Of a stretch of 64,000 bases of DNA, positions 5,545 through 50,040 are shown in pieces. The stretch is from Actinomycetes bacterium. Its GTDB lineage: Bacteria; Actinomycetota; Thermoleophilia; Gaiellales; Gaiellaceae. Each line of letters opens with the position of its first letter. Positions within the stretch are counted from its first letter, which is position 1. The stretch covers positions 62,001-126,000 of the forward strand of contig JAPOVR010000032.1 of assembly GCA_026708005.1 (NCBI GenBank), in the 5' to 3' direction. The notes under the pieces were generated by a model. That model did no database searches and had not been told where the DNA came from. It saw only the letters and a program-made list of their open reading frames with translations. The position numbers and the translations under genes were made by a program.

Positions 5545-5979
5545 CTACACCGATACCGGCGGCGAACTGGCGAAGCAGTAGGAGTCCAGGACGAGGCTGT
5601 GCACAACCTCAAGCTCTCCCCGATCGCGCGGCGCGCAGACGAGCAGCCGGGTTGGCGGAATGCGCCCCTCGCGCGACCAGGGATGGAGCTCAGCCCACCC
5701 TGACTCGATCGCGGCGTCTGCCTCCTCCTCGGGAAGGCTCAGATGCAGGCTCTGGTCACGCTCGGGATGGAGATGCGCAAACTCGCGCCCGATCAGGAGC
5801 GCCTCCGGCGGGCCAACTGCCGCCGCCTCACTCAGCACCTGCGCTCGGGCGCCCAGAACCGAGATCCTGCTCGGCTCCTCGCTGACCTCGGGGAGGGCAA
5901 ACACGCGCTCGGCGAGCTCACGCCGGAGCGACGGATCGGTGGACTGCTGATCGAGCTGCTGCTGCGGGTTGCCAACCAA
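5545..5979 (-). CDS. DUF5519 (luciferase-domain) family protein
   Basis: Small protein of 144 residues. The middle carries GREFAHLHPERDQSLHL and the second half ESGWAELHPWSREG followed by VCAPRDRGELEVV, a pattern I recognise from the DUF5519 or luciferase-domain family, whose function is unknown. The start appears to be TTG at 5979; the ribosome site is weak, so the N-terminus is uncertain by a few residues. No signal peptide or membrane segment is visible. It lies downstream of the tRNA-His gene on the same strand, with no clear functional link. Confidence 0.7.
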   Translation of the reverse strand: MVGNPQQQLDQQSTDPSLRRELAERVFALPEVSEEPSRISVLGARAQVLSEAAAVGPPEALLIGREFAHLHPERDQSLHLSLPEEEADAAIESGWAELHPWSREGRIPPTRLLVCAPRDRGELEVVHSLVLDSYCFASSPPVSV

Positions 5980-6116
5980 GACCCGCAGCCACAGCCCAGC
6001 ACGGGCTTCGGACGTGCCGTACTCACCGCAACGCCCTCGACCCCGCCACGGCTAGCACAGACGCGGCCTACACCGCCGGCGATCGCGCAGCGAGATGCTG
6101 TGCGGGATCTCGCGAG

Positions 6117-6190
6117 GGTGACCGACGGGATTCGAACCCGCGACCACCGGGACCACAACCCGGGGCTCTACCAGCTGAGCTACGGCCACC
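6117..6190 (-). tRNA. tRNA-His (GTG anticodon)
   Basis: A full cloverleaf folds on the minus strand. The 7-bp acceptor stem is GTGGCCG with CGGTCAC (one G-U pair), the D arm is GCTC/GAGC, the anticodon stem CCGGG/CCCGG carries anticodon GTG, and the T arm has TTCGAAT. The extra G at position -1 and the discriminator C73, which pair and identify tRNA-His, are both encoded. CCA is not encoded. Confidence 0.97.
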
Positions 6191-6243
6191 GCGCGCTTCA
6201 ACGATAGCGCAGCGCAGGGATCGCAGACGCTTGCCGCCGCCGG

Positions 6244-6924
6244 TCAGAAGAGCGTGAGGGCGGGCTCGGCATCGCCGTTCAGAACGGCGAGATCGACTTC
6301 GACCCACCCGATCTCTCGCGACTCCGCGAGCGCTCGCGCCTGGGGCTTGACGAGGGACGCAGCGAGCACTCCGCGGCACCCTGCAAGCTCAGGGTCGATC
6401 CGAAGACGCTCCAGATAGCGGGTCAGCTGCTCGACGGCGTCGATCGTCCCAATGCGTTTCACCTCGACGGCAACCCACCGGCTGTCCTGGTCGCGGCACA
6501 TGAGGTCGACGGGACCGATGTCGGTTGGCCACTCCCGGCGCACGAGGCGAAGCCCTTCGGCACAGTGCCACGGCGCTGCCGCCAGCGCCTCCTGGAGATG
6601 GGCCTCGACGCCCTCCTTCTGGAGCCCGGCGGCCTCCGCCATCTCATGCTCGACATCGCTCAGAACCTCTGCGACGTCGATCTCGAGCTGCTCGTCGCCC
6701 TTGAGCTTGCGAACCACGATGCGCTCGATCGGGCTCCCCTCGACGTCGATCGCGGTCGGGGGCGTCATCCAGTTCAGCGGCTTGTAGCCGCCGCTGTCGG
6801 CGTGCACCATCACCGAGCCGTCCGACTTGAAGACAAGCAGGCGCAGCGCCTCCGACAGCACTGCGGACAGCCGACCGGTGTACCGCACCTCGCAGCGAGC
6901 GACGATCAGGCGCACGGCCGGCAA
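6244..6924 (-). CDS. nucS: Endonuclease NucS/EndoMS
   Basis: Mismatch-specific DNA endonuclease that replaces MutS/MutL repair in most Actinobacteria; it cuts both strands around G-T, G-G and T-T mismatches. The 226-residue protein has the N-terminal DNA-binding half (MPAVRLIVARCEV, YKPLNWM at about 48-54) and a C-terminal RecB-like nuclease domain with the active-site set Asp140 in GPVDLM, Glu154 and Lys156 in VAVEVKR. The extreme C-terminus is ALTLF, matching the short hydrophobic tail used to bind the beta sliding clamp. The TTG start at 6924 aligns with the mycobacterial N-terminus. Length and order are normal. Confidence 0.95.
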   Translation of the reverse strand: MPAVRLIVARCEVRYTGRLSAVLSEALRLLVFKSDGSVMVHADSGGYKPLNWMTPPTAIDVEGSPIERIVVRKLKGDEQLEIDVAEVLSDVEHEMAEAAGLQKEGVEAHLQEALAAAPWHCAEGLRLVRREWPTDIGPVDLMCRDQDSRWVAVEVKRIGTIDAVEQLTRYLERLRIDPELAGCRGVLAASLVKPQARALAESREIGWVEVDLAVLNGDAEPALTLF

Positions 6925-7837: not shown

Positions 7838-9256
<1,419 letters not shown>

Positions 9257-11025: not shown

Positions 11026-11055
11026 CTGACCTGGACCCGCGTGTGGTTGTCGGTT
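11026..11055. repeat. Left terminal inverted repeat of the IS
   Basis: Reads CTGACCTGGACCCGCGTG then TGGTTGTCGGTT. It matches the complement of 12278-12309 with a two-base gap and a few mismatches. The OrfB stop codon lies at its inner edge. Confidence 0.75.
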
Positions 11056-11907
11056 TAGGTTGTTCGGGTGTTTAGGCTTTCTCGCCAGGTGGCGGCGAGT
11101 TCGGTGGGTGTTTGGTAGCCGATCCCTGAGTGGGGTCGGTGGTGGTAGGCGGTGACGTAGTCGTTGATGGCTCTCCTTGTGTGGTCGAGGGTTTCCCATT
11201 CGGCGCGCCAGGCCAAGCGTTTCTTGAAGTGGCCAAACCAGGACTCGATGAAGGCCTGGGATTCGGGGTCGCGGTAGCCGCCGCGTCGGTGGGTGATCCC
11301 GCGGCTCGATAGGTGTTTGCGGAAGCCACGGGAGGTGAATTGGGTGCCGTTGTCGGTGCCAAGCGTGAGCTGGTCGGGCTCGATCGCTCGCGTCTCGAGC
11401 GCGCTCTCGAGGCAGGCGATCGCTTCGGTCGTTCTAGCCCGATGGTCGAGTGTCCAGGCGGTGATCTCGCGCGTGCAGCAGTCGATGATCGCGTGCAAGT
11501 TCACCCAGCCGTGCTGGCCTGTCCAGAGCTTGGTCATATCCATATGCCACAGCTCTTCGGGACGGGTGACCTGGAAGAAACCGGGTCGGGGCCGCCGACC
11601 AAGATAGCGGGTCGGTTGCAGGAGTCGGTGCTGGTGCATGATCCGTTGCACCCGCTTGCGATTCACCGGCTCAGCGAGCTCGCGAGACGCGATCGCAGCG
11701 ACCATCCGCGTCCCATCGGCCGGATTCGCGTTCGATCTCCACGATCGCCGCGTCTGCCTCTGAGACCCTTCCTGGGCCGGCCTCGATCGGTCCGCGCCGG
11801 GGAACGCGATAGATCGCCTGGCGTGAGATGCCTGCCACTCGCGCGACCACCGCCGGTCGGCGCCCCTGAGCGACCACGGCACGGGCTCTGGACACGCGGA
11901 CGCTCAC
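11055..11907 (-). pseudogene. IS3-type transposase OrfB, frameshifted
   Basis: Encodes the rve/DDE integrase domain. The start is GTG at 11907, overlapping the OrfA stop by four bases (GTGA), which suggests translational coupling. The frame runs through a helix-turn-helix-like segment (ARVAGISRQAIYRV) to about 11730. There the frame must shift to continue NPADGTRMVAA, then LWHMDMTKLW (first Asp), GTDNGTQFTS (second Asp) and FIESWFGHFK (Glu). Loss of one CG from a CGCGCG run would explain the break. This is not the OrfA/OrfB boundary where IS3 elements use programmed shifting, so I call it inactivated. Confidence 0.8.
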
Positions 11908-15194: not shown

Positions 15195-15758
15195 TCAAGC
15201 CGGCTGGGGCTGGGGATCGTGCAGGAGGCCGGCCTCGAGAGCAGGGCAATACGCGGCGGCGACGCCTGCGATCTGCTCCCGCGACGCGCCGTAGAGGCTC
15301 TCGCTCATCGTGACGATCGCGAGGTCCGGCAACCCGCAGGCCCGAGCCGTCCCCTTCGCCATGTCGATGAGCACCTCGGTGACCAGCATGACCGTCGGCA
15401 CGCCTTCGGCCTCCGCCGCCACCATGTCGCGCACACTGCGCGACGTGCACGTCGCTCAGTCGCCGACTGCTATCACCAGCGCGCTGTACCGGTCGGCCAT
15501 GGCCGCCGCCCAGCGCGCGGGCGAGGGTCCGCCCAGGGGCGGCCGGGCGACCCGCGCGAACGACAGCGACCTGTGCTTGCGGCTTAAGAACTCCGCTGCC
15601 GCGTCGAGCATGCCCTGACCCCACATGGCTCCCGGGTTCAGCATGCTGTCCACCAGTCCGAGCTTCGCCTCTGACAACGACGATGGGCGCTCGGCCGCGG
15701 TCTTCGTCTCGTACGCGTCCGCCACTGGATCGATGTAACGCGAGCTAATGCTACTCAT
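15195..15758 (-). CDS. UGSC-type selenoprotein, copy A (Sec at codon 101)
   Basis: Reading through the TGA at 15456-15458 gives a 187-residue protein. The first 100 residues include GLVDSMLNPGAMWGQG and GGPSPARWAAAMADRYSALV. The TGA falls in the sequence GD-U-ATCTSRS, a UxxC redox motif, followed by AEGVPTVMLVTEVLIDMAKGTARACG and SMSESLYGAS. This matches the UGSC family of (seleno)proteins, where U or C occupies the first motif position and which resembles glycine/betaine-reductase B-type selenoproteins. Copy B at 35763 has TGA at exactly the same codon and mostly silent differences after it. A hairpin suitable as SECIS follows. The ATG at 15758 has GAGG upstream. It lies 33 bases after the partner gene. 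The reaction is unknown. Confidence 0.85.
15426..15444 (-). promoter_or_regulatory. SECIS-like hairpin, copy A
   Basis: Perfect 8-bp stem GTCGCGCA/TGCGCGAC with apical loop GTG. The loop begins 19 bases after the TGA, within the spacing known for bacterial selenocysteine insertion elements. The identical hairpin occurs in copy B. SelB recognition is inferred, not shown. Confidence 0.6.
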
Positions 15759-15791: not shown

Positions 15792-16826
15792 TCACTCCTC
15801 GACCTTCTTGATGACGATCTCTCCGAAGCCGAAGCAAAGCGCCGTATAGCCTCCGTACGGTGCGCCGGCGACCGTTATGAGGACACGCCCCGGCGCATCG
15901 ACGATCGAGATCGGCTCATCGGAGTACGCGTCGTCCTGCCAGGGCGGAGGCATCACGTCGTCCATGAACCCAAAGAGGCCTCGCTCTGAGAGCCGCTCGC
16001 GTGGCACGCAGGCGCGCTCGAACAGGAACTGCTGAACGTCTGCCTTCGACCAACCCGCGTCCGAGATGAGGTTGGCATGCTCCGGGGCCATCACGAGCCA
16101 GAGATCCTGGCGAAAGAAGATGTTCGTCGTGCCGGGTATCGCTGCCGATTCCGCAATCGTTCTGAGGATGAGCTCTGGTTCCGTTCGGCCCATGTCGGCG
16201 ATGCAGAGCGGAACATCCGCTGCGTAGACCGTGACTGTGGAGTCTTCGGGGGCGAAGCCGCGCTCGACCGGAAGCTCTGGCCAGGGCGAGAGGTCGACGT
16301 TCTCCGTGTAGCAGTAGCTGTACTTGCCCGGATGGCCGATCGTCGAGCCGTCCAGCGCACGCTCGTCAGAATGTCGTATCGGCCGAGCGCCGGCGATGTT
16401 GCGCAGGCAGAGGTTCAGCGCACGGCCGATTGTGGCGTTCGCACGGCTCCCCGAACCGAGCGCTCCAGCATCGCCGTTCATCTCAAGAGCCCGCGCGATC
16501 GGCCCGCTGACGAGGACGAGAGCAGCCATCGGATCGACCGCCGTCACCATATCGTCGAGCCAGAAGCCCTCGTCCGCTACTGCTCGAACTGACGCCTCGA
16601 CCACCGGGAGGTACTCAGGAAGACATCCAGCCATCACGGCATTCGCCGCGATCTTCTCCCGGGTGGCGATCCCCCCGGCCGGCGGTAGCGCTGCAATGAC
16701 CTCATCGCGCCGGCTCGAGAGCTCGCCGAGCATTCGCTCCACCCTCTCGTTCGTGGGGGGAACCACCGGGAGACCGTCCGTCCAGCCCAGCTCGTAGCAC
16801 TCTTCGAAATCTTCGATCTCGTCCAT
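15792..16826 (-). CDS. Selenoprotein-associated protein of unknown function, copy A
   Basis: A 344-residue soluble protein directly upstream of the UGSC selenoprotein gene, paralogous along its length to the product at 34687. Shared landmarks are CYELGWTDGLPV near the N-terminus, PPAGGIATREKIAANAVMAG, LRNIAGARPIRHSDERALDG, GKYSYCYTEN, TTNIFFRQDLWLVMAPEHAN and GAPYGGYTALCFGFGEI. Several Cys positions are kept in both copies. I recognise this as a partner found with UGSC proteins but know no assigned activity. The ATG at 16826 matches the other copy's start. It is probably co-transcribed with the selenoprotein. Confidence 0.75.
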   Translation of the reverse strand: MDEIEDFEECYELGWTDGLPVVPPTNERVERMLGELSSRRDEVIAALPPAGGIATREKIAANAVMAGCLPEYLPVVEASVRAVADEGFWLDDMVTAVDPMAALVLVSGPIARALEMNGDAGALGSGSRANATIGRALNLCLRNIAGARPIRHSDERALDGSTIGHPGKYSYCYTENVDLSPWPELPVERGFAPEDSTVTVYAADVPLCIADMGRTEPELILRTIAESAAIPGTTNIFFRQDLWLVMAPEHANLISDAGWSKADVQQFLFERACVPRERLSERGLFGFMDDVMPPPWQDDAYSDEPISIVDAPGRVLITVAGAPYGGYTALCFGFGEIVIKKVEE

Positions 16827-16994: not shown

Positions 16995-17075
16995 TCCCAG
17001 CAGTAGAGTTCTGCCCTCTCGCGGCGACGACGCATCGACGGGCGCACCAATCGAACAACGGAGAGAGGGAGAGAC
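16995..17075 (+). promoter_or_regulatory. Conserved leader/promoter region of SMP-30 gene, copy A
   Basis: The segment upstream of the SMP-30 start is recognisably similar to that upstream of the other copy (32957-33035). Shared elements are TAGAGTT (17004-17010 here), a GCGC-CAATCG box, and a GAGAGAGG ribosome site followed by GAC-ATG. TAGAGT could be a -10 element; no clear -35 is seen. Confidence 0.35.
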
Positions 17076-17954
17076 ATGTTGGACACGTTCTCGATGCTCG
17101 TTCAAGGCCTCGACCATCCGGAGGGAGTGACGTGGGGACCAGACGGCCACCTCTACGCTGGAGGTGAGGCTGGTCAGATCTACCGGGCGAAGCTAGACGG
17201 GCGAGTCGAGCAGATCGGAACGACGAGATGCTTCGTCCTTGGTCTGGCGCTCGATGCAAACCTGCGCGTCTATGCCTGCGACCTGTACCACCACAAGGTG
17301 TTCCTGTTCGAGCCGTCAACGGGGGGACTAGAGATCTACTCGTCGGGCACCGATGAGGCACCACTAAACCAACCGAACTACCCAGCGTTCGACGATGCAG
17401 GGAACCTCTACGTGTCGAGCTCCGGCGACTGGGGGCCAGACGACGGAAAACTCTTTCGGATTTCGGCGACCGGCGAGACGTCGATATGGTCGACAGAACC
17501 CGACTGCTACACGAATGGCTGTTGCCTGGGCGCTGACGGTGACGCAATCTACGTGGTCGAGTCGCGACGTCCACTCGTCTCGCGGATTCCGATTCTCGCT
17601 GATGGATCAGCAGGCGCGCGTGAGATCGTGACGGAGCTCCGGGGCTGCGCTCCGGATGGAATCGCCCTGGATGTCGACGGATCGCTCTATGTGTCGTGTT
17701 ACTCGCCAAATCACATCTACCGCATCACTCCGGATGGCGTCGTCGAGCTGCTCGTTGAGGATCCCAGCGGCACCATGCTCTCGACTCCGACCAACGTGGT
17801 GTTCGCCGGTGACGATCTCGACCGGCTCGTCGTCGCCAACGTAAGCCGGTTTAATCTTGCAATCACGCAGCTAGGCGTACGCGGGCTGCCGCTGCGCTAT
17901 CCGGCGATCCGACGCGAGACCGTGCCGCCTTCTCCGTACATCCACAGGTTTTAA
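17076..17954 (+). CDS. SMP-30/gluconolactonase/LRE family protein, copy A
   Basis: A 292-residue six-bladed beta-propeller lactonase-type protein. Repeating blades are visible as DHPEGVTWGPDGHLYAGG, GLALDANLRVYACD, YPAFDDAGNLYVSS, CCLGADGDAIYVVES and APDGIALDVDGSLYVS. The propeller Asp/Asn/Glu positions that bind the divalent metal in SMP-30 and PON-like lactonases (Glu in HPEG, Asn in QPNYPAF, Asp in APDGIAL) are kept. It may open a sugar or other lactone; the substrate is unknown. The ATG at 17076 has GAGAGG upstream. It is the same length as, and nearly identical in sequence to, the copy at 32078-32956. It is convergent with the SDR gene. Confidence 0.88.
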   Translation: MLDTFSMLVQGLDHPEGVTWGPDGHLYAGGEAGQIYRAKLDGRVEQIGTTRCFVLGLALDANLRVYACDLYHHKVFLFEPSTGGLEIYSSGTDEAPLNQPNYPAFDDAGNLYVSSSGDWGPDDGKLFRISATGETSIWSTEPDCYTNGCCLGADGDAIYVVESRRPLVSRIPILADGSAGAREIVTELRGCAPDGIALDVDGSLYVSCYSPNHIYRITPDGVVELLVEDPSGTMLSTPTNVVFAGDDLDRLVVANVSRFNLAITQLGVRGLPLRYPAIRRETVPPSPYIHRF

Positions 17955-18115: not shown

Positions 18116-18895
18116 TCACGCGCGAGCCTCTTGAGGCACGAAGCTGGTGCCCGTTGAGAACCCTCCGTCGACCGTGACCTCCGAACCGGTCATGTACGAG
18201 GCTTCGTCGGATGCCAGGAAGAGCACGGCATTCGCCGTGTCGGCGGGCTCGGCGAACCGCTTGATCGGATTTCCCTGGAGGTACGCCGGCCCCATGACCG
18301 GATCCTCCACCACGATGCCGCCGATGCGAGTATTCGTCAGGCCGGGATTCACCGCATTGACGCGCACCCCCTGCGGCCCGAGATCGAGGGCGGCTCCTCG
18401 TACAAAACTCACGACGGCACCTTTCGACGCGCAGTAGCTCGAGTTGTTGTTGCCGGCAAAGTGGGCGTTGATCGAGGCGATCGCAATGATCGAGCCCCCG
18501 CCGTTGGCCACCATGACTCGGGCAGCCTCCTGCGTGCAGTAGAAGACCCCGTTGACGTTGACGTCCAGGACGTGCTGCCAGCTCTGGTCGTCGATCTCGA
18601 GGACGTGCGCGAGATGTATTACACCGGCTGCAGCCACCATCACGTCGAGCTTGCCGAAGCGAGAGACGCACTCGCTGACCGCGCTCTGCACATCCTCACG
18701 CTTCGTGACGTCCCCAGCCACCGTTGCCAAAGCCCAGCCGCTTTCCTGAAACTCGGCTGTGGTCTCCTCCAGCACGTCCGCATCGACGTCGAGGGCAACG
18801 ACATCGGCGCCTTCCTCGGCGAAGCGCTGTGCGATCCCCTTCGCAATCCCCCGTCCAGCTCCGGTGACGATCACTGCCTTCCCCGAGAACCTCAT
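18116..18895 (-). CDS. SDR family oxidoreductase of cassette A
   Basis: A 259-residue short-chain dehydrogenase. It begins MRFSGKAVIVTGAGRGIAKG with the TGAGRGIA nucleotide site, has Asp in ALDVDAD for NAD preference, AAAG in place of NNAG, Ser in IASINAH, and the catalytic pair in SSYCASKGAV. The C-terminus is MTGSEVTVDGG. The ATG at 18895 follows AGGAGG by six bases. The cassette B homologue (31123-31872) is interrupted by stop codons, so this is the only working copy. It is convergent with SMP-30; a lactone-forming dehydrogenase feeding a lactonase is a reasonable but unproven pairing. Confidence 0.88.
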   Translation of the reverse strand: MRFSGKAVIVTGAGRGIAKGIAQRFAEEGADVVALDVDADVLEETTAEFQESGWALATVAGDVTKREDVQSAVSECVSRFGKLDVMVAAAGVIHLAHVLEIDDQSWQHVLDVNVNGVFYCTQEAARVMVANGGGSIIAIASINAHFAGNNNSSYCASKGAVVSFVRGAALDLGPQGVRVNAVNPGLTNTRIGGIVVEDPVMGPAYLQGNPIKRFAEPADTANAVLFLASDEASYMTGSEVTVDGGFSTGTSFVPQEARA

Positions 18896-19225
18896 CAGCG
18901 CCTCCTCTGTCTCGTGTCTCTCTCTATAACCCTGCGACAACCAGCTCCTCGCAGAGCTGCGTGGGATTGTATGGGCGCCGTGTCGAGCTTGATCGCCGTC
19001 AACGGGTGACGCCGGCACCTCACACCCGTTCGCGGCCTGAAGGCAGATCGTCGTGGCGGGCCCTTGCTGATCCGCGGCCCGCTTTCGGTTGCCGGCCCAG
19101 AAGATGACTCGAACCGTCGCGGGACGTCAGCCCAGCAATCAGATACTGCCCGTTTCGCGTATGGTGCGGACGCCGGACGCGTGCCAACCGTGTCATGGCC
19201 CTGCCATCGGAAAGGAGATGACGCG
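18896..19225. other. Divergent intergenic region between two SDR genes
   Basis: 330 bases between divergent SDR starts, expected to hold both promoters. TATGGT at about 19160 could be a -10 box for the plus-strand gene. No gene or strong hairpin is seen. Confidence 0.4.
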
Positions 19226-26405: not shown

Positions 26406-27509
26406 TTAGACCACTTCAGCCTCCGCTTGCTCCGCAACGAACGCTTCGGGCACCGGTGTCTCGTCGCCGAACTCGGGCATGACCTCCTCAGCGAACAAAC
26501 GCATCGACCGCAACACCCGGTCATGCTCCAGTCCGCCGGTGTTCATGAGGCAGCAAAAGCGCTTCACACCGACATCGTCCCGCAGCGCTCGAATCACGTT
26601 CCGCGCCCCTTCCGGGTCCGAGACGAGAACGTTTCCTGACGCGTTCAGCTCCTCGACCGGCGGTACGGTGCTGTCGCCGCTTATCAGCACCTCCTCATAG
26701 GCCTCGTAGCCCTTTGGTGCCTTCCCCTCGAAGCCGGGCGTCGCTTTGAGCGCGTGCGAGAACTGGAACTCGATCGCCGTCCTGCTGTCGTCAAATGCCT
26801 GTTCTACCGTCGGCGCAAGATGAACCACCATCGTCACCGGGATATCTACCTGTGCTGGCATACGGCCGTTTTGAATCATCGTACGCGCACCCGATATGAT
26901 GTGCTTCTTCAAATCCTCGAGCGGCATCAGCGCTGGCGCGGTCATGATGTCGAAGCCCTTCTGAGCGGCAAACTCAAACGTCGATGGACTGATGGCAGCG
27001 ATCATTACCGGCACAGGCTGCTGAAGTGGCTTGGGAAACACTTCAACGTTGTTGACCTGAAAGTGCTGGCCCTCGTACGAGAACGGCTCCCCTTTCCACA
27101 GCCCGACGATGATATCGAGGCTCTCGCTGAACACCTCTCTGCTGGTTGACTGGTTGGAACCCTGATGTGCAAATTCGCGAGGCTGATAACCGCGGCCGAC
27201 TCCGAAATCCAGACGCCCACCGCTGAGAACATCAACCATCGCGTATTCTTCGGCAGTTCTGACTGGATAATCAAACGGAAGGATTGCGACGGCAGTGCCG
27301 ATACGGAGCGTCTGAGTTCGTTCCGCAATTGCCGACATCAAGACTGGTGGACGTGACATGGCTCCGTAAGAGCTGCCGTGATGCTCCGCGAGCCAAGCGA
27401 ATGTGAAACCCAGCTCTTCCGCGTATTGGCACTGTTCAAGGATCTCCTCGTACTCGCGCCTGTAATTCCCACGTGGGCTGCTACCGAGAAAGAAAAGGCC
27501 AAACTTCAT
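26406..27509 (-). CDS. LLM class flavin-dependent oxidoreductase
   Basis: Luciferase-like TIM-barrel monooxygenase of 367 residues starting MKFGLFFLGSSPRGN. Family landmarks are WLAEHHG at about residue 40, RIGTAVAILPFDYPVR, DVLSGGRLDFGVGRGYQP and VPVMIAAISPSTFEFAA. It may use reduced FMN or F420. The ATG at 27509 follows GAGGAA. As first gene of the importer operon it could oxidise or desulfurise the imported compound, an idea supported only by position. Confidence 0.88.
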   Translation of the reverse strand: MKFGLFFLGSSPRGNYRREYEEILEQCQYAEELGFTFAWLAEHHGSSYGAMSRPPVLMSAIAERTQTLRIGTAVAILPFDYPVRTAEEYAMVDVLSGGRLDFGVGRGYQPREFAHQGSNQSTSREVFSESLDIIVGLWKGEPFSYEGQHFQVNNVEVFPKPLQQPVPVMIAAISPSTFEFAAQKGFDIMTAPALMPLEDLKKHIISGARTMIQNGRMPAQVDIPVTMVVHLAPTVEQAFDDSRTAIEFQFSHALKATPGFEGKAPKGYEAYEEVLISGDSTVPPVEELNASGNVLVSDPEGARNVIRALRDDVGVKRFCCLMNTGGLEHDRVLRSMRLFAEEVMPEFGDETPVPEAFVAEQAEAEVV

Positions 27510-27943
27510 TGGGTTCCTCTCTAATGTGCCGGTGGCGGCCGGCCTACGTCCGTCGACGCGCGGAACCACTAGCGCGTGAATGGGCTCGCGCGGGTGGCGC
27601 GATCATAGGCCGGCAGCGGCCCTCTTGTCAAGGATGTCACAAGCTTCGCGAAGGTGAGTTCTGGCGATCCGCGCCCTAGTGGCACCCGAACGGAAGATCC
27701 GGCCGATCGGCCATGAATCCACCCGTGTCGACAGGGTTTCCGGCACCCCAGGGTGGCAACCGCGGCACCCCCGGCCCCGACACCGTCTGAGCGATCCGCG
27801 CGCGGCCCAGGCGCCGTGACAGCTCGAAGAAGCGGGGCCCCGCTGCACGGATCGGCACGAGGAGGTACCGGCGTCTAGCCGGTCTTCTCTGGATCTCTAG
27901 CCTGGTCGAGGTTATCGGCCATCGCTCCCCACCTCTCGGCTAA
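27510..27943. other. Intergenic region, no supported gene
   Basis: 430 bases upstream of the LLM gene, presumably with its promoter. A minus-strand frame at 27676-27858 (PRFFELSRRLGRARI) is open but not recognisable. Confidence 0.4.
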
Positions 27944-30781: not shown

Positions 30782-31125
30782 TCAGCCGAGTGGCGCCGAT
30801 TCGATCGCGTGCGCAGCCGGCAGAACCTCGTCCGCAAAGCGGTCGAGTTGCTCGAGCATGCCCTCGGTTGTGCCGGAAGGCGGGTCAAAGAGGATCGTGA
30901 TGTGCGAGTATCCGTGGGCGGCGAAGTCCTCGAGGTCAGAGATGATCTGCCCGGCGTGCCCGGTAAGCGTTGGACGTCTGTCTCTTCCCGTAACGGGGTC
31001 TGACTTGTCCGTGATTCTCCCGGAGGCGAGCCCGAGGAGCTGAAAGTCATCGAGGTCGCGACCGACACGCGACCGACACGGTCCGCCTCGTCAACGATCG
31101 CCTCCCGCACATAGTCGTAGCTCAC
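30782..31125 (-). pseudogene. C-terminal remnant of an LLM oxidoreductase
   Basis: The minus strand ends with a frame reading LTGHAGQIISDLEDFAAHGYSHITILFD then GTTEGMLEQLDRFADEVLP, the typical C-terminus of luciferase-like oxidoreductases. Upstream, an 11-bp tandem duplication (GTGTCGGTCGC twice, near 31060-31085) breaks the frame from the preceding YVREAIVDEADRVGR. The N-terminal two thirds are missing and the relic abuts the truncated SDR at about 31125. Confidence 0.6.
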
Positions 31126-31872
31126 GGGGCTGGCCGGGGGATTGCGAAGGGAATCGCGCGGCGATTCGCTGAGGAAGGAGCAGATGTCGTGGCGTTCGAC
31201 CTTGACGCGGATGCGCTGGCAGAGACGGCAGCTGAGTTTCAGAAGAGCGGCTGGAATCTGACAACCGTGGCCGGGAACGTGACGAGGCGAGATGATGTCC
31301 GGGGTGTGGTGAACGAGTGTGTCGCTCGGTTCGGCAAACTCGACGTGATGGTGGCCGCGGCGGGCGTGCTCCACCTCGCGCACGTTCTCGAGATCGACGA
31401 CAAGAGCTAATAGTATACCCTAGACGTCAACGTCAACGGGGTTTTCTACTGCACCCAGGAGGCAGGCCGTGTGATGGTGGCTGGTGACGGTGGCGCGATT
31501 GTCGCAATCGCCTCCATCAACGCCCACTGGGCCGGCAACAATAACTCGAGCTACTGTGCGTCTAAGGGTGCCGTTGTGAGCTTCGTGCGCGCCGCGGCCC
31601 TGGATCTCGGGGCTCAGGGCGTACGCGTCAACGTCGTCCACCCGGGACTGACAGATACCCGCATCGGCGGAATCGTGGTCCACGACCCGGTCATGGGGCC
31701 CGCGTTCCTCCAGGGAAACCCGATTAAGCGCTTTGCCGAACCCGCCGATACCGCCAACGCAGGCCTCTTCCTCGCATCCGAGGATGCGTCGTACATCACC
31801 GGCTCGCAGATCACGGTTGACGGCGGCTTTACAACCGGCACCGGCTTCGTGCCCGAAGAGGCACGCACGTGA
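31123..31872 (+). pseudogene. SDR oxidoreductase of cassette B, inactivated
   Basis: Strongly similar to the SDR at 18116-18895, but the first dozen residues are missing; the frame picks up at GAGRGIAKGIARRFAEEGADVV. Two consecutive stops, TAA TAG at about 31408-31413, replace the Trp-Gln that follows LEIDDKS. Beyond them the frame is open to the end with IASINAH, SSYCASKGAV and ITGSQITVDGG intact. No product is expected. Confidence 0.85.
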
Positions 31873-32077: not shown

Positions 32078-32956
32078 TCAAAACCGGTGGATATATGGAG
32101 AGAGCGGAAGGGTCTCTCGTCGGATCTCCGGATAGCGCAGTGGAAGCCCAGGCACGCCCAGCTCCGTAACGGCGAGGTGGAACCGGCTCACGTTGGCGAC
32201 AACGAGCCGATCGAGATCGTCACCGGCAAAGACGATGTTGGTCGGCGCCGAGAGCATCGTGCCGCTGGGATCCTCAACAAGGAGCTCGACGACACCATCC
32301 GGGCTGATCCGATAGATGCGGTTGGGGGAGTAACACGACACGTAGAGTGATCCCTCGACGTCCAAAGCGATTCCGTCCGGAGCACAGCCCACAAGCTCCG
32401 TCACGATCTCCCGCGGGCCGGCCGATCCGTCCGCGAGAACTGGAATCCACGAGACCAGCGGGCGTCGCGACTCGACCACGTAGAGTGCGTTGCCGTCGGC
32501 GCTCAGGCAGCAGCCATTTGTATAGCAGTTCGGTTCTCTCGACCACACCGACGTTTCGCCGGCTGCAGAGATCCGAAAGATTCTTCCGTCATCCGGCCCC
32601 CAGTCACCGGAACTCGACACGTAGAGATTCCCTTCATCGTCGAACGCTGGGTAATTTGGCTGGTTGAGGGGCTCCTCATCGGTCCCCGCCGAGTAGATCT
32701 CCGTTCCTCCAGTCGAAGGTTCGAACAGGAACACCTTGTGGTGGTAGAGATCGCAGGCATAGACGCGGAGGTTTGCATCGAGCGCCAGACCAAGGACGAA
32801 TCCCCGCGTCGTTCCGATCTGCTCGGCTCGACCCTCCATCGTCGCCCGGTAGATCTGGCCGGCCTCGCCCCCCGCATAGAGGCAGCCATCTGGTCCCCAC
32901 GTCACTCCCTCGGGATGGTCGAGACCTTGTACAAGCATAGCGAAGCTGTCCAGCAT
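32078..32956 (-). CDS. SMP-30/gluconolactonase/LRE family protein, copy B
   Basis: A 292-residue beta-propeller lactonase-type protein, collinear without gaps with the product at 17076-17954. It retains the same blade motifs (HPEGVTWGPDGCLYAGG, YPAFDDEGNLYVSS, APDGIALDVEGSLYVS) and metal-site positions. The ATG at 32956 follows GAGGAAG; the frame is open further upstream but the paralogue fixes the start. Unlike the neighbouring SDR and Rieske genes it is intact, so it is probably still under selection. It is convergent with the SDR pseudogene and divergent from the LLM gene. Confidence 0.88.
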   Translation of the reverse strand: MLDSFAMLVQGLDHPEGVTWGPDGCLYAGGEAGQIYRATMEGRAEQIGTTRGFVLGLALDANLRVYACDLYHHKVFLFEPSTGGTEIYSAGTDEEPLNQPNYPAFDDEGNLYVSSSGDWGPDDGRIFRISAAGETSVWSREPNCYTNGCCLSADGNALYVVESRRPLVSWIPVLADGSAGPREIVTELVGCAPDGIALDVEGSLYVSCYSPNRIYRISPDGVVELLVEDPSGTMLSAPTNIVFAGDDLDRLVVANVSRFHLAVTELGVPGLPLRYPEIRRETLPLSPYIHRF

Positions 32957-33035: not shown

Positions 33036-33128
33036 TCCAGCAGGACCGGGCGAGGTGGATCGCGGCGTCTGCGATGGCGCGAGCGACGATAGGCTTTGCG
33101 ACTGCGCACATCGAGAGGAGAGGAGCCA

Positions 33129-34178
33129 GTGGCTTCGCAACAGGAGCCAGGCCATCCGCTGAAATTTGGCGTCTGGTACGACTTCCGCAACCCGCGGCTC
33201 TGGCCTCGCTCGTATGCACGCCTATACCGGGAGAGCCTTGCTCAGATCGAGTGGGCAGACGAGCTCGGCTTCGAGTCGGTCTGGCTCTCCGAGCACCACT
33301 TCACGGACGAGGCGTACCTGCCCGCAATGCTCCCGATGCTGGCCGCCGTCGCGGCACGAGCGAAGCGGATGCGGATCGGAACCGCGGCGTTGCTCGCCCC
33401 GCTCCACCATCCTCTGCGTGTCGCCGAGGATACCAGCGTCGTCGACCACTTGTCAGGAGGGCGGCTCGAGCTTGGTCTTGCGCCAGGCTATCGCCCAGAG
33501 GAGTTTGAGGCTCTCGGAGTTCCTCACTCGGAACGCGGTTCTCGAACAGACGAGCTAGTCGACATCCTCAAGACTGCCTGGCGGGGAAAACCGTTCTCGT
33601 ATACGGGTCGCCACTACACCCTCAGGGACGTTCAGGTGACACCGGCACCGTTCCAGAGGCCACACCCACCCCTCTGGATCGGGGGTGGCAGCCGAGCGGC
33701 AGCCCGACGAGCCGGGCGGCTCGGCTGTCATTTCATGCCCGACTGGGCGGCGAGCCCCGCTGTCCACGACGTGTATCGAGACACGCTCGTCGAGAGTGGT
33801 TACCTGCCGGAACGCTTTCGCGTCTGCATGAACCGGCAGATCTACGTCTGCGAGGATCCCGAGGAAGGATGGCGCGAGGTTGGTGAGCACTACCTCTATT
33901 CGTTCAACCGCTACAGGGAATGGTTCGCTGCCGCCGGCGACTTTCCAGAGCTTGGCGCGCCTCTGGCGAGTAGCGACGAGCTACCTCGAGATGTTCACCT
34001 CGTCGGTACACCTGAAATGGTGATCAAAGACATCCAACAGATACAGAAGACCTACAGCTTTGAACGCTTCATCTTCTTCGCGAATCCTCCCGGACTTCCC
34101 ATCGAGCGCGGCTCGCAATCCCTCGAGCTCCTGGCGCAAGAGGTGATGCCCCACTTTGCTGATACTCCTAGCGGTTGA
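33129..34178 (+). CDS. LLM class flavin-dependent oxidoreductase of cassette B
   Basis: A 349-residue luciferase-like monooxygenase. It has HPLKFGVWYDFRNP at the N-terminus, SVWLSEHHFTDEAYLPAML, MRIGTAALLAPLHHPLRVAED, DHLSGGRLELGLAPGY and PLWIGGGSRAAARRAGRLG. The GTG at 33129 follows GAGAGGAG. It occupies a position between SMP-30 and the partner gene that is empty in cassette A. The cofactor (FMN or F420) cannot be decided by eye. Confidence 0.88.
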   Translation: MASQQEPGHPLKFGVWYDFRNPRLWPRSYARLYRESLAQIEWADELGFESVWLSEHHFTDEAYLPAMLPMLAAVAARAKRMRIGTAALLAPLHHPLRVAEDTSVVDHLSGGRLELGLAPGYRPEEFEALGVPHSERGSRTDELVDILKTAWRGKPFSYTGRHYTLRDVQVTPAPFQRPHPPLWIGGGSRAAARRAGRLGCHFMPDWAASPAVHDVYRDTLVESGYLPERFRVCMNRQIYVCEDPEEGWREVGEHYLYSFNRYREWFAAAGDFPELGAPLASSDELPRDVHLVGTPEMVIKDIQQIQKTYSFERFIFFANPPGLPIERGSQSLELLAQEVMPHFADTPSG

Positions 34179-34686: not shown

Positions 34687-35733
34687 ATGATTGAGCTCGA
34701 AGATTTTGAGGCGTGCTACGAGTTGGGCTGGACCGACGGTCTGCCCGTGATTCCCCCCACGCTCGAGAGGGTGGAGCGAATGCTCGGCGAACTCTCGCAC
34801 CGGCGCGACGAGGTCATCGCGGTGCTACCGCCGGCGGGGGGGATGGCCACCCTGGAGAAGATCGCGGCGAATGCCGTGATGGCAGGGTGCCGCCCTGAGT
34901 ACCTCCCCGTAGTCGAGGCAGCAGTTCGCGCGGTGGCGGATAAGGGCTTCTGGCTCGACGACATGGTGACGGCTGTCGATCCGATGGCCGCTCTCGTCCT
35001 CGTCAGCGGGCCGATCGCGCGGGCTCTGAAGATGAACGGCGACGCCGGAGCCCTCGGGTCGGGAAGCCGTCCGAATGCGACCATCGGCCGCGCACTGAAC
35101 CTCTGTCTGCGCAACCTGGCCGGCGCTCGGCCCATCCGCCATTCGGACGAGCGCGCGCTTGACGGATCGACGATCGGGCATCCAGGGAAATACAGCTATT
35201 GCTATACAGAAAACGTCGTGCTCTCTCCCTGGCCCGAGCTTCCGACCGAGCGTGGTTTCGATGCAGATGACTCCACGGTCACTCTTTACGCTGCAGATGT
35301 ACCAGTCTGCGTCGTTGATATGGGTAGAACCGAGCCCGAACTTATACTCCGGACAATCGCCGAGTCAGCTGCAATCCCTGGCACCACGAACATCTTCTTT
35401 CGCCAGGATCTCTGGCTTGTGATGGCGCCGGAGCATGCCAACCTTATTGCTGATGCGGGTTGGACAAAGGCTGATGCTCAACAGTTTCTATTTGAGCACG
35501 CAAGCATCTCTCGCGAACGTCTCACAAACCGAGGTTTATTCGGGTTCATGGATAATGTGATGAAGCCCTCCTGGCAGGATGACAAAGATAGCGATAACCC
35601 GATCTCAATCGTCGACGCTCCTGAGCGAGTGCTGATAACCGTAGCAGGAGCACCGTACGGCGGGTATACGGCCCTGTGCTTTGGCTTCGGCGAAATCGTC
35701 ATCAATAAAATTGACACGAATAGAGGCAGTTAA
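34687..35733 (+). CDS. Selenoprotein-associated protein of unknown function, copy B
   Basis: A 348-residue paralogue of the product at 15792-16826, collinear through its length. All landmarks of copy A are retained (CYELGWTDGLPV, PPAGGMATLEKIAANAVMAG, LCLRNLAGARPIRHSDERA, GKYSYCYTEN, GAPYGGYTALCFGFGEI). The third codon positions are AT-richer towards the 3' end (about 35440-35730) than in copy A. It is followed after 29 bases by the selenoprotein gene. The activity is unknown. Confidence 0.75.
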   Translation: MIELEDFEACYELGWTDGLPVIPPTLERVERMLGELSHRRDEVIAVLPPAGGMATLEKIAANAVMAGCRPEYLPVVEAAVRAVADKGFWLDDMVTAVDPMAALVLVSGPIARALKMNGDAGALGSGSRPNATIGRALNLCLRNLAGARPIRHSDERALDGSTIGHPGKYSYCYTENVVLSPWPELPTERGFDADDSTVTLYAADVPVCVVDMGRTEPELILRTIAESAAIPGTTNIFFRQDLWLVMAPEHANLIADAGWTKADAQQFLFEHASISRERLTNRGLFGFMDNVMKPSWQDDKDSDNPISIVDAPERVLITVAGAPYGGYTALCFGFGEIVINKIDTNRGS

Positions 35734-35762: not shown

Positions 35763-36311
35763 ATGAGCAGCGACAGTTCGCGCTACATCAATCCAGTGTC
35801 GGATGCTTATGAGGTGAAGAGCGAAGCTAAACGTTCGTCATCCCTTTCGGACGCCACTGTGGGCCTGGTCGATAGCATGCTGAACCCAGGAGCCATGTGG
35901 GGCCAAGGCATCCTCGACGCCGCCGAGGAATTCCTGAGCCGCACGCAAACGTCACTCACCTTTGCGCGCGTTGCCCGGACCCCGGTCGGTGGGCCATCGC
36001 CGGCGCGGTGGGCGACAGCGATGGCTGAACAGTACAGCGCGCTCGTCACAGCAGCCGGCGACTGAGCCACATGCACGTCGCGCAGTGTGCGCGACATGGT
36101 GGCGGCAGAAGGCGAAGGACTACCCACGGTCATGCTCGTGACCGAGGTGCTCATCGACATGGCGAAGGGGACGGCTCGGGTGTGTGGGCTGCCAAATCTC
36201 GCCATCGTCTCGATGAGCGAAAGCCTCTACGGAGCATCGCGAGAGGAGGTTGCGCGCGTCGCTGCTCCGTACTGCTCTGACGTCGAGACCGGGCTTCTGC
36301 GTGATCTCTAG
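35763..36311 (+). CDS. UGSC-type selenoprotein, copy B (Sec at codon 101)
   Basis: Reads as a 182-residue protein if the TGA at 36063-36065 is selenocysteine. The N-terminal hundred residues align without gaps with copy A (GLVDSMLNPGAMWGQG, GGPSPARWATAMAEQYSALV). After GD-U-ATCTSRS the frame continues EGLPTVMLVTEVLIDMAKGTARVCG and SMSESLYGAS to a TAG at 36309. Codons after the TGA differ from copy A mostly at silent third positions, which is hard to explain if the TGA ended translation. The ATG at 35763 follows GAGG. Redox chemistry through the U-x-x-C pair is likely; the substrate is unknown. Confidence 0.85.
36077..36095 (+). promoter_or_regulatory. SECIS-like hairpin, copy B
   Basis: Identical in sequence to the copy A hairpin: 8-bp stem GTCGCGCA/TGCGCGAC, loop GTG, loop starting 19 bases after TGA. 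The only differences between the copies from TGA through the hairpin are two silent bases next to the TGA. Confidence 0.6.
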
Positions 36312-36397
36312 AGAGACTTACTGGACTGTGTAACACGCTGCACCCAAGCGGGGGTACGATCCGTTCTACCGAGGTGGCCCAGAGCGAGGAGGCTCAG

Positions 36398-37492
36398 ATG
36401 GAGACTGAAGCGACCGCTGACATCGCGGGCTCAACGCTTCGAGACTCCCTCGATTCGGGTCACACCTTCCCGGGCAGGTGGTTCACGGACGCCGCAATCT
36501 TTGACCTCAAGCAGGAGCGCGTCTTTCGTCGTAGCTGGCTCTACGTGGGTCTCACGAGTCAGATTCCAGATCCGGGTGACTACTTCACGGGTCGTGCTGG
36601 CCGGGTTCCTGTCGTCGTGGTTCGAGACGAGCACGGCCAGATCAACGCCTTCGTAAACGTTGGTCGCTATCGCGGGTCGCTGATCGTCCAGGAGGAGCTC
36701 GGACACCGTATGACGCTTCAGTGCCCCTACCACAACTGGACATAGAGGCTTGAGGGGTCGCTGCGGAATGCGCCACGGTCCGACCGCAATCCTGAGTTCG
36801 ATCCGCATGGCATCACACTCGCCCGACTCACATCGAATGTCTTCGACCCGCTCATCTTCGTCAGCCTTGACGCAAATACACAACCGTTTGCCAAGATCTT
36901 CGCTCAGTGGATAGAAGACGTGGAGAGCACCTCGGCACGCCTGGACGTCGCGCTCAACTGCCGCGAGTCGATCAGTCACGAGATTGCTAGCAACTGGAAG
37001 GTGCTCTGCGAGAACAATTTCGAGTGCTACCACTGCCCAGCCAATCATCCGACGCTGGCCGCGATTCAGGACGTCGGCGAGGACTTCAGCTGCGAATTTT
37101 GCGATAGGTACTTCCGTTACGGACCGCGTCCAGACACCGTCCACAGCATTCAGAACAGAGACTCGCTTCTCTACTTCCTCTGGCCAAATCTCTTCATCTT
37201 CTTCATCCCTGGCGTGAGCGGGGTCGTCCGCCAGATCCAACCTGTGTCGTCCGACCGCTCTCTCGACGTTCGGCGCTACTGCTTCTCGGATGCAGTCGAC
37301 GATGATGTCAAACCTGAGACCGTTGAATTCTGGAAGCACGTCCTCGCACAGGATGCGGCTCTCTGCGAGAACGTCCAGCGCGGCCTCGGCTCTGGGCGAT
37401 TCGGCCAGGGTCGACTCTTGCTCCCCGTCACGGATCCTGCCATTCAGCGCTTCGAGTGCATGCTTCACCGATCTCTGAGCGACGGCGACTGA
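36398..37492 (+). pseudogene. Rieske non-heme iron oxygenase large subunit, inactivated
   Basis: Ring-hydroxylating-type oxygenase alpha subunit of about 365 codons starting at ATG 36398 behind AGGAGG. A TAG at 36743-36745 interrupts the Rieske domain just after CPYHNWT. The first pair of Rieske ligands is also lost: the expected VNVCRHRG reads VNVGRYRG, so Cys and His of CxH are Gly and Tyr. The second pair (CPYH) and the catalytic-domain iron region (NNFECYHCPANHPTL) remain. The combination of ligand loss and nonsense codon argues for decay, not for recoding. Confidence 0.88.
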
Positions 37493-47814: not shown

Positions 47815-50040
47815 TCAGCCTGGCAGCGACCGCTTGTCGAGGAAGCGCTCGAGCACGTTGCGGGTGAGCCTCGCCACGTCGTTGTCGTAGCCGTTCCAGG
47901 AGAGGCTCGAGCACCACGTGATCGAGCCCGTCGAGAAGACGGCGCCCCCGCCGGGGTGCGTGAACAGCGTCATGTCGGCGCGCACATCCGGGTCCTTCGT
48001 CCCCCCGACGCCAGGCGTCGAGACGGGGATCTCCTCGACAACCCGCAGCATGCCGTCCGTGTGCGCTTCCGAGGCGGCCAGCAGCAGCGTCTGCGGAGGC
48101 GTACCGAGGTCAAGCTCGTAGCGGTCGAGCTCGTGGCCGGCAGCGCCGCCGCCTGCAAGACCGAAGTCACCGATGATATCGCCCTCGATGCCCTCGAAGA
48201 CCCAGGCTGCCCGCTCGTCGCGGGCGTCGGGCAGCAGCCGAAAGTACGACGAGCAGTCGAACCCCTCCGCCGCGAAGCCCACCGCGGCGAGCTTCTGCGG
48301 CGCGCGCCCGCGGTATCGCCACAGGCCGCCGGGCCGGCCCGTCGAGGCATGCCAGCCCTCGCCAGGCTGCCCCTCCCAGGCCCGAATACCCGCCTCTCCG
48401 CGGCGCACCTCGATGATGTGGGGCTTCTCTGGGTGGAACGTCGTCACCCAGTAGAAGCCGTTGCCGCCGAGGTACATGAGGCCCCCACCGCCGGCGACGA
48501 AGCCCTCCAGCGCGTCGAGCATTCCCGGCGAAGTGTACTCAGGGTGTGTCCCGGTGATGATGACGTGGTACGGCTCAAGCAGCTCGACCCCCTCACGATC
48601 GAGATCCTCGTCGGTGGCGACATCGAACTGCTGCCCGTCGGCATCGAGCCAGTCGATCAGGTTGAGGTCGGCATTGAACCCCCACAGCCCCGATGCGATC
48701 GGCGAGAGGTACTTCGGTCGCATCGTCAGGATCGGCCTGAGCCGAGACGAGTAGCACACGCCGCTGCCGTCGGCGTGCGAGTCGTACATCGAGAGGCCAA
48801 GCTCACGCCGCTCGGCGAGAACGACGTCGCTCTCGCACAGCATGATCGCGTGCCCGAGGAGGTACTCGGCGGCTCCCGCATCGGTGCCCTGGTGGTCGTT
48901 GGCGTACGCGAGGTAGGTCGCTGTTGGCAGGAGGACGAGCGCCTTCGCGGTCGCGGTCCCCTGGGGCGGGCGCACGACGAACGGCACGTACTCCTCTGCC
49001 TTGCCGGCGCGCAGCCGCACCGCATAGAGTCCGCTCCGCATCCCGCGGGGAACCGTGAACGCAAGGTCCGGCTCCCAGCGTGCGTCCTCGAGATCGTCCT
49101 CGTGGAAGTGAATCGCGCCGTACTCAGACGGGGCATGGACGAAGGAGTCGGTCCAGCCCGACCAGCTTGCTCCGGTCATCCCTCGCGCAGGCAGGTTGAC
49201 GCACGTGCCGTGCAGGCCGTTCCCGGAGACGTCCTCGACATGGTCGGACGGAATGCCCTCTGGCCCGATGCCCACGCTGAAGTCCCAGGCGGCAACGGCA
49301 GCCCCAGCAGCGTGAACGGCCGGCGCCTCGAGCTTCCCGTTGAAGTGCCTTGCGGGAACGACCCGGCCATCCTCGGCCGTCTCGCACGCCGCGAGCAGGA
49401 ACCTCGTGTTGGCTGGTGCCGCGATCTCGACGGCGGCCGCTCGCTCCGCGCGCTCGCCGGCAGGCGCACCGAGCGGTCCCACTTGCGAGTTGAACGACGT
49501 CACCTGCGGGTCGCACCGAACGCTCATGAAGCCGGAATCCGCGTCGCACTCCCCTTCGATCTCATACCAGACGCGCTGCACGAGCGGCCTCTCGGTCACA
49601 GCCTGCGCGGCGTTGCCCTGGCCGTCGCCGACGTGAAACGCGAGGCGGCCTGCCTCGTCGAGCATCAGCGCATAGCCGGCTGAGAGATCAGCACGCCACC
49701 TCCCCATAATCACCTGCTCGCCGCTGCCAGGCAGCGTCGGCCAGACGAGCGCACGCAGCGACAGGCTCCCGCGCGCGGCAAGCCTGCCGTCCGGATCGTC
49801 GATGCGCACGTAGGAGCCTGTCTCGATCGGCTGCACTCGGCCCGGATAGGCCCCCGCGAGGTCCGAGTCGACCACCACCTCCTTGAACCCCGGGCCGGAC
49901 GGGTCGGCGCAGCCGCAGAGCAGCCTGACGAGCGCGGCCTCGAAGCGCTGCTCGCCCTCACAGCTCACGTGGAAGCTGACGGTCTCGCCCGGGGCTGCGC
50001 TGAAACGATCGGGGTAGGCAAGCACGAGCGGCCGGCTCAT
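47815..50040 (-). CDS. dmfA2: N,N-dimethylformamidase-like large (beta) subunit
   Basis: A 741-residue protein similar in length and layout to the large subunit of iron-dependent N,N-dimethylformamidase, which hydrolyses DMF to dimethylamine and formate. It has an N-terminal beta-rich/LamG-like half and a C-terminal glutamine-amidotransferase-like half with GLSMYDSHADGSGVCYSS, ITGTHPEYTSPGMLDAL and GGGLMYLGGNGFYWVT. These are the Tyr- and Glu-containing stretches where the mononuclear iron is bound in the known enzyme. The ATG overlaps the small-subunit stop by four bases. The true substrate may be another small amide. Confidence 0.85.
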   Translation of the reverse strand: MSRPLVLAYPDRFSAAPGETVSFHVSCEGEQRFEAALVRLLCGCADPSGPGFKEVVVDSDLAGAYPGRVQPIETGSYVRIDDPDGRLAARGSLSLRALVWPTLPGSGEQVIMGRWRADLSAGYALMLDEAGRLAFHVGDGQGNAAQAVTERPLVQRVWYEIEGECDADSGFMSVRCDPQVTSFNSQVGPLGAPAGERAERAAAVEIAAPANTRFLLAACETAEDGRVVPARHFNGKLEAPAVHAAGAAVAAWDFSVGIGPEGIPSDHVEDVSGNGLHGTCVNLPARGMTGASWSGWTDSFVHAPSEYGAIHFHEDDLEDARWEPDLAFTVPRGMRSGLYAVRLRAGKAEEYVPFVVRPPQGTATAKALVLLPTATYLAYANDHQGTDAGAAEYLLGHAIMLCESDVVLAERRELGLSMYDSHADGSGVCYSSRLRPILTMRPKYLSPIASGLWGFNADLNLIDWLDADGQQFDVATDEDLDREGVELLEPYHVIITGTHPEYTSPGMLDALEGFVAGGGGLMYLGGNGFYWVTTFHPEKPHIIEVRRGEAGIRAWEGQPGEGWHASTGRPGGLWRYRGRAPQKLAAVGFAAEGFDCSSYFRLLPDARDERAAWVFEGIEGDIIGDFGLAGGGAAGHELDRYELDLGTPPQTLLLAASEAHTDGMLRVVEEIPVSTPGVGGTKDPDVRADMTLFTHPGGGAVFSTGSITWCSSLSWNGYDNDVARLTRNVLERFLDKRSLPG

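Follow-up and report, generated by a model that had tools for sequence, protein, structure and literature searches.

Probable selenocysteine at codon 101

The open reading frame at 35763-36311 (+) of the window (the whole stretch of 64,000 nucleotides that was analysed) runs from ATG to TAG over 182 codons plus the stop, and contains one internal TGA, at codon 101 (36063-36065, +). Is this codon a stop or is it read as selenocysteine (Sec), and what would the complete protein do? The preliminary description of this DNA had called the gene (copy B) a second UGSC selenoprotein, the first being copy A. Copy A lies at 15213-15758 on the opposite strand (-), with its TGA at 15458-15456 and a hairpin at 15444-15426. 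When translated with TGA as U, copy B matched Pfam PF24696 (UGSC) over residues 11-176 with 90.4 bits (E=2e-25), far over the cut-off of 25 bits, and it shared with the UGSC family (PF24696; NF041046; GOS survey PMC2398784) the size of about 180 aa, a SECIS hairpin, a neighbouring P3 gene, and Sec at a like position with Cys at +3. The family assignment and the Sec reading were both supported. However, the match to the NCBIfam UGSC equivalog model NF041046 (67.9 bits for copy B, 73.5 for copy A) fell under its cut-off of 125 bits, and the Sec-Gly-Ser-Cys tetrapeptide was absent: copies A and B, a third copy (C) and most of their subclade have U-A-T-C, and an Acidobacteriota assembly (L050) has U-A-S-C. 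Copy B further differs from canonical UGSC proteins in lacking the Cys at +6, which is absent in the UATC clade, in a 4-residue insertion after LVD (the SMLNPG region), and in its identity to them of about 20-28%. Copy C, on contig C164 of the same genome, also carries the TGA and is more diverged, at 50% identity, than A and B are from each other. A subclade comprising the three copies, same-family relatives, one Acidobacteriota and one Chloroflexota assembly, all with TGA and UATC or UASC, was supported. Judged from sequence, copies A, B and C belong to a UATC-motif subclade under the NCBIfam UGSC cut-off, a point that is new here.

Comparison of the two copies agreed with what had been claimed for them. 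The TGA occupies the same codon in both, 181 codons align without a gap at an amino-acid identity of about 78-79%, no frame-destroying indels were found, and third positions account for 27 of the 42 nucleotide differences downstream of the TGA. The calculation that had been proposed, dN/dS on either side of the TGA (Nei-Gojobori, A versus B), gave 0.091 before it (upper bound 0.18) and 0.122 after it (bootstrap 95% 0.054-0.219), the latter far under 1, as had been predicted for selection on the protein downstream. Synonymous divergence (pS) was 0.22 in codons 102-113, next to the TGA, and 0.64 before it; an RNA hairpin within the coding sequence is expected to restrain synonymous change in this way.

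Such a hairpin, GUCGCGCA-GUG-UGCGCGAC, is located at 36077-36095 (+), starting 12 nt past the TGA. It folds with -12.4 kcal/mol alone (z -2.54 in context) and can be drawn with 8 bp, or with 7 bp and a 5-nt AGUGU loop, the loop starting 18-19 nt past the UGA. Published constraints on bSECIS elements (PMC13188914) are a loop of 3-9 nt with a G in its first two positions, a spacing of 16-37 nt and an MFE <= -7.5, and the copy B hairpin agrees with each of them. Among 19 distinct homologues, standard pairs filled 98% of the pair cells and 5 of the 8 pairs had changed on both sides; none of 500 shuffles reached any observed covariation measure, and sliding the partner strand abolished the signal. 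This stretch folded with -9.9 to -12.4 kcal/mol in Sec genes versus -1.6 to -7.6 in the six Cys homologues, which, by these foldings, lack the bSECIS hairpin. We did not take runs of A/B identity alone as evidence of a SECIS element, since the longest (40 nt at codons 127-140; permutation p 0.0008) lies outside the hairpin.

In a 31-protein alignment the Sec position was TGA in all 25 Sec homologues and Cys in the other 6, and positions 101 and 104 were invariant, as in a UxxC motif with Sec-to-Cys replacement. The pattern scan of genome contigs had Cys codons at the Sec position and thus under-counted Sec homologues; a pattern-based scan of viral contigs found no relative. The genome also encodes the bacterial Sec gene set: a tRNA-Sec (selC) with UCA anticodon (66.9 bits, confirmed by ARAGORN), immediately preceded by selA and selB, and selD (325 bits). 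The hairpin, together with SelA, SelB, tRNA-Sec and SelD, makes it very probable that codon 101 receives Sec, a reading to which the hairpin-less Cys homologues lend independent support. That the TGA is a genuine stop, giving a 100-aa product and leaving the downstream similarity as a leftover, is extremely improbable: the code of this genome does use TGA as a normal stop, but against this stand the purifying selection after the TGA, the covarying hairpin, the complete Sec machinery, and relatives in Actinomycetota, Acidobacteriota and Chloroflexota whose corresponding codon is likewise TGA. In the overall explanation, which we regard as probable as a whole, 35763-36311 is a functional UGSC-family (PF24696) selenoprotein gene of a divergent Sec-Ala-Thr-Cys subclade.

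Inverted duplication and the fate of block B

At the DNA level, the surroundings of the two copies (15.2-18.9 kb and 31.1-36.3 kb) gave three collinear inverted matches of 79-83%, covering a common set of four genes: SDR, SGL lactonase, P3 and UGSC. The P3 genes (15792-16826, -, for copy A; 34687-35733, +, encoding 348 aa, for copy B) are 87% identical in amino acids, as are the SGL/gluconolactonase-like genes (PF08450) at 17058-17951 (+) in block A and 32081-32956 (-; open reading frame to 33190) in block B, and omega was about 0.1 for each of UGSC, P3 and SGL. The SDR gene is intact in block A (18116-19018, -; PF13561/PF00106), whereas its counterpart in block B (31021-31866, +) lacks the 5' end and is broken by a tandem TAA-TAG at 31408-31413. 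A luciferase-like monooxygenase gene (33096-34178, +; PF00296, E=1e-62), between SGL and P3, is found in block B only. Copies A and B were sisters, with support of 99/99, in the tree of the rows compared. From these comparisons, the pair is an ancient inverted duplication of the SDR-SGL-P3-UGSC block, and it is because of this duplication that two UGSC selenoproteins occur within 20 kb.

The arrangement had been described as unusual for an actinobacterium, which did not hold up: the pair here arose by segmental inverted duplication, and among the 36 genomes of the class that have the family, at least 11 carry more than one UGSC gene. An older survey listed 33 UGSC proteins in 26 organisms (PMC5029168). 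An integrase-core (rve) transposase-type gene is present at 11055-11882 and a DDE transposase adjoins copy C, and it is plausible that mobile elements had a role in the copying of the block.

We considered whether copy B, even with its TGA recoded, might be a decaying duplicate whose locus no longer matters. Beyond the truncated SDR with its two stops, copy B has a longer branch than copy A (0.19 versus 0.097), so that it evolved somewhat faster, and a lower GC3, and the gene directly downstream, for a Rieske ring-hydroxylating oxygenase alpha subunit (36374-37489, +), is broken by an in-frame TAG (36743-36745). This Rieske gene is likely a pseudogene or reflects an assembly error. However, copy B has acquired no indel, TAA or TAG over a dS of about 1, its overall omega is 0.11, it keeps 22 of 23 clade-invariant sites before the Sec and 12 of 14 after it, its hairpin is unchanged, and the block B genes for P3 and SGL have stayed intact (omega 0.09 and 0.10). 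We therefore regard decay of the locus as unlikely, and a functional copy B as the better description. Block B thereby provides a clean internal contrast, in which the selenoprotein frame was kept through its TGA and the adjoining SDR copy decayed with ordinary stops.

A merging of two strains or species during assembly is very improbable as the source of the pair: the assembly is fragmented (177 contigs) with an estimated contamination of 2.7%, but both copies are on a single 187-kb contig, mutually inverted, about 20 kb apart and with DNA identity of just 79-83%, block B differs by one additional gene and by the decay of its SDR, and the two copies are closest to each other among the rows compared.

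The partner gene P3 and a likely relationship to GrdB

P3 lies directly upstream of UGSC, and a P3 homologue adjoined UGSC at every UGSC locus examined. It was present in 35 of the 399 genomes of the class, and this set is identical to that of the 35 genomes in which UGSC scored over the cut-off. Searches of Pfam and NCBIfam with P3 and its relatives (a 19-member alignment) matched no family. In one further locus (L073, with motif UPGC), and apparently in another (L074), a UGSC-like domain and P3 are encoded in a joint open frame that has one TGA, so that these appear, from their reading frames, to be natural UGSC-P3 fusions. Taken from gene order and sequence, P3 is an unnamed family beside or fused to essentially every UGSC gene, which is also new here, and the two very probably constitute a conserved two-gene module with P3 upstream. 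The authors of the GOS survey reported UGSC fused to a domain 'Unknown_1' (PMC2398784), and P3 may be this domain. UATC/UASC-type UGSC together with P3 also occurs in other phyla, in L050 (Acidobacteriota) and L054 (Chloroflexota), and this points to a horizontal spread of the module.

The GOS paper suggested a thioredoxin-like fold for UGSC (PMC2398784). Our AlphaFold2 model (pLDDT 92) instead has five strands alternating with helices, Sec101 following strand 93-99 and standing at the start of helix 102-117, and its best PDB matches were azoreductases, lumazine synthases and flavodiiron proteins. We therefore propose, as a further new point, a predicted fold that is flavodoxin/Rossmann-like and not thioredoxin-like. 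For P3, the model gave poor PDB matches only (fumarate hydratase, cyclic amide hydrolases; TM 0.30 or less), and a sequence search of the PDB returned nothing real for UGSC, P3 or a full-size GrdB relative.

Profile comparisons pointed to GrdB, the selenoprotein B of glycine reductase, and its relatives PrdB, GrdF and GrdH (of D-proline, sarcosine and betaine reductase; PF07355, TIGR01917). TIGR01917 (GrdB) was matched by 10 of the 31 UGSC proteins, with 3.7e-4 at best, and others matched GrdF and PrdB; copy B itself scored 11 bits against TIGR01917, under the cut-off of 602, and had no match to PF07355. An hhalign comparison of UGSC with TGA-containing GrdB-type proteins of the same phylum gave 89.5% (E=2e-6, score 49.5), the maximum in shuffled-column controls being 23.1, and aligned Sec on Sec as well as a 'PHP' motif near the C-terminus. 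The stretch GDUATCTSRSV is thereby placed against STUGTGTRCGS, and the UGTxTRC of GrdB-type proteins is resembled by the canonical UGSC motif, UGSCxSC. GrdB-type proteins work with the product of a neighbouring gene, as UGSC very probably does. They differ in size (about 430 aa for GrdB-type proteins versus about 180 for UGSC, which lacks the PF07355 match) and in that partner, which is the pyruvoyl-type GrdE/PrdA (PF09338) for GrdB-type proteins and P3, which has no Pfam family, for UGSC. We conclude, and this is new here, that UGSC likely shares ancestry with the Sec domain of GrdB/PrdB, a remote relationship in which single-protein matches are weak. In 15 genomes of the phylum (L095-L109) there are full-length GrdB-type genes (PF07355) whose TGA stands in an STUGTGTRCG-like motif; where checked, GrdE-type genes (PF09338) adjoin them, and some of the genes are part of joint open frames of great length. 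Homology of P3 itself to GrdE/PrdA was unsupported (hhalign 0.2% to a GrdE set that included some over-long frames).

These comparisons bear on another reading of the protein, that UGSC is a generic thioredoxin-like thiol-disulfide oxidoreductase that uses UxxC, a classic redox motif, for antioxidant or repair work and has no substrate chemistry of its own. Against it stand the confident five-stranded flavodoxin/Rossmann-like model, with no thioredoxin in its top 50 PDB matches, and the profile similarity to GrdB/PrdB. The strict P3 partner and catabolic surroundings point rather to a specific enzyme, and we consider the generic role doubtful.

A proposed two-subunit selenoenzyme and its setting

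GrdB and PrdB enzymes are thought to make and break a Se-C bond (PMC10298544), and for a GrdB-like pair, cleavage of the fluoroacetate C-F bond has been proposed (PMC10838667). From these precedents, we infer that UGSC and P3 form a two-subunit GrdB-like selenoenzyme. UGSC would be a compact relative of the GrdB/PrdB Sec domain and would have a flavodoxin-like alpha/beta fold, in which the Sec101 selenolate sits at a helix N-terminus. Sec101 would attack a carbon of the substrate (or a disulfide-like bond) while the substrate is held or polarised by P3, Cys104 would resolve the Se-adduct to a selenenylsulfide, and a cellular dithiol would re-reduce it. The attack on carbon, what P3 contributes and the kind of substrate are conjectural, and we hold this chemistry with slightly less than even confidence. 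The fluoroacetate-cleaving pair FarB/FarE (PMC10838667) is similar to UGSC-P3 in being a two-gene, Sec-dependent module with a proposed attack on an activated carbon, and its partner, as for P3, is not a pyruvoyl proprotein. It differs in belonging to anaerobic Synergistota and in having been described as GrdB/GrdE homologues.

Whereas GrdB chemistry is known from anaerobes, the UGSC cluster here has oxygenase genes. The cluster contains the SGL lactonase, SDR, two luciferase-like monooxygenases, Rieske oxygenase remnants, a CoA-transferase, an enoyl-CoA hydratase and an oligopeptide-type ABC transporter, and this catabolic-type gene setting suggests a catabolic role for the UGSC-P3 locus. In this cluster, the two duplicates probably act on related but distinct substrates. 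Copies B and C have luciferase-like monooxygenase genes nearby, and the interval between A and B contains such genes too (33096-34178, +, and 26406-27569, -, in the window; 5665-6729, +, in L021); a functional link between them and the UGSC-P3 module is possible. As a conserved neighbour of UGSC this gene was rejected, being absent near the Acidobacteriota and Chloroflexota relatives and at most UGSC loci. Elsewhere in the window, an ordinary SAH riboswitch (Rfam RF01057; 7721-7813) is located directly upstream of an S-adenosylhomocysteine hydrolase gene (7838-9256, +), and a large protein gene at 47818-50040 (-) has a C-terminal domain like the N,N-dimethylformamidase beta-subunit (PF20254).

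Taken together, we consider it probable that copy B combines a recoded Sec101, an origin as an inverted duplicate, membership in a P3 module and a remote relationship to GrdB, the proposed chemistry of a two-subunit selenoenzyme being the least certain part. More tentatively, UGSC and P3 might represent an unrecognised class of two-subunit selenoenzyme in which GrdE/PrdA was swapped for P3, cleaving C-N, C-X or C-S bonds in bacteria that are probably oxygen-tolerant, with A, B and C as substrate-specific paralogues. With an obligate partner, an apparent fusion of the two in nature, likely common descent with glycine and proline reductases and three paralogues in one genome, what was a hypothetical protein becomes a testable two-subunit enzyme. 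The partnership with P3 and the link to GrdB are the more interesting result, through which a large uncharacterised selenoprotein family is made testable.
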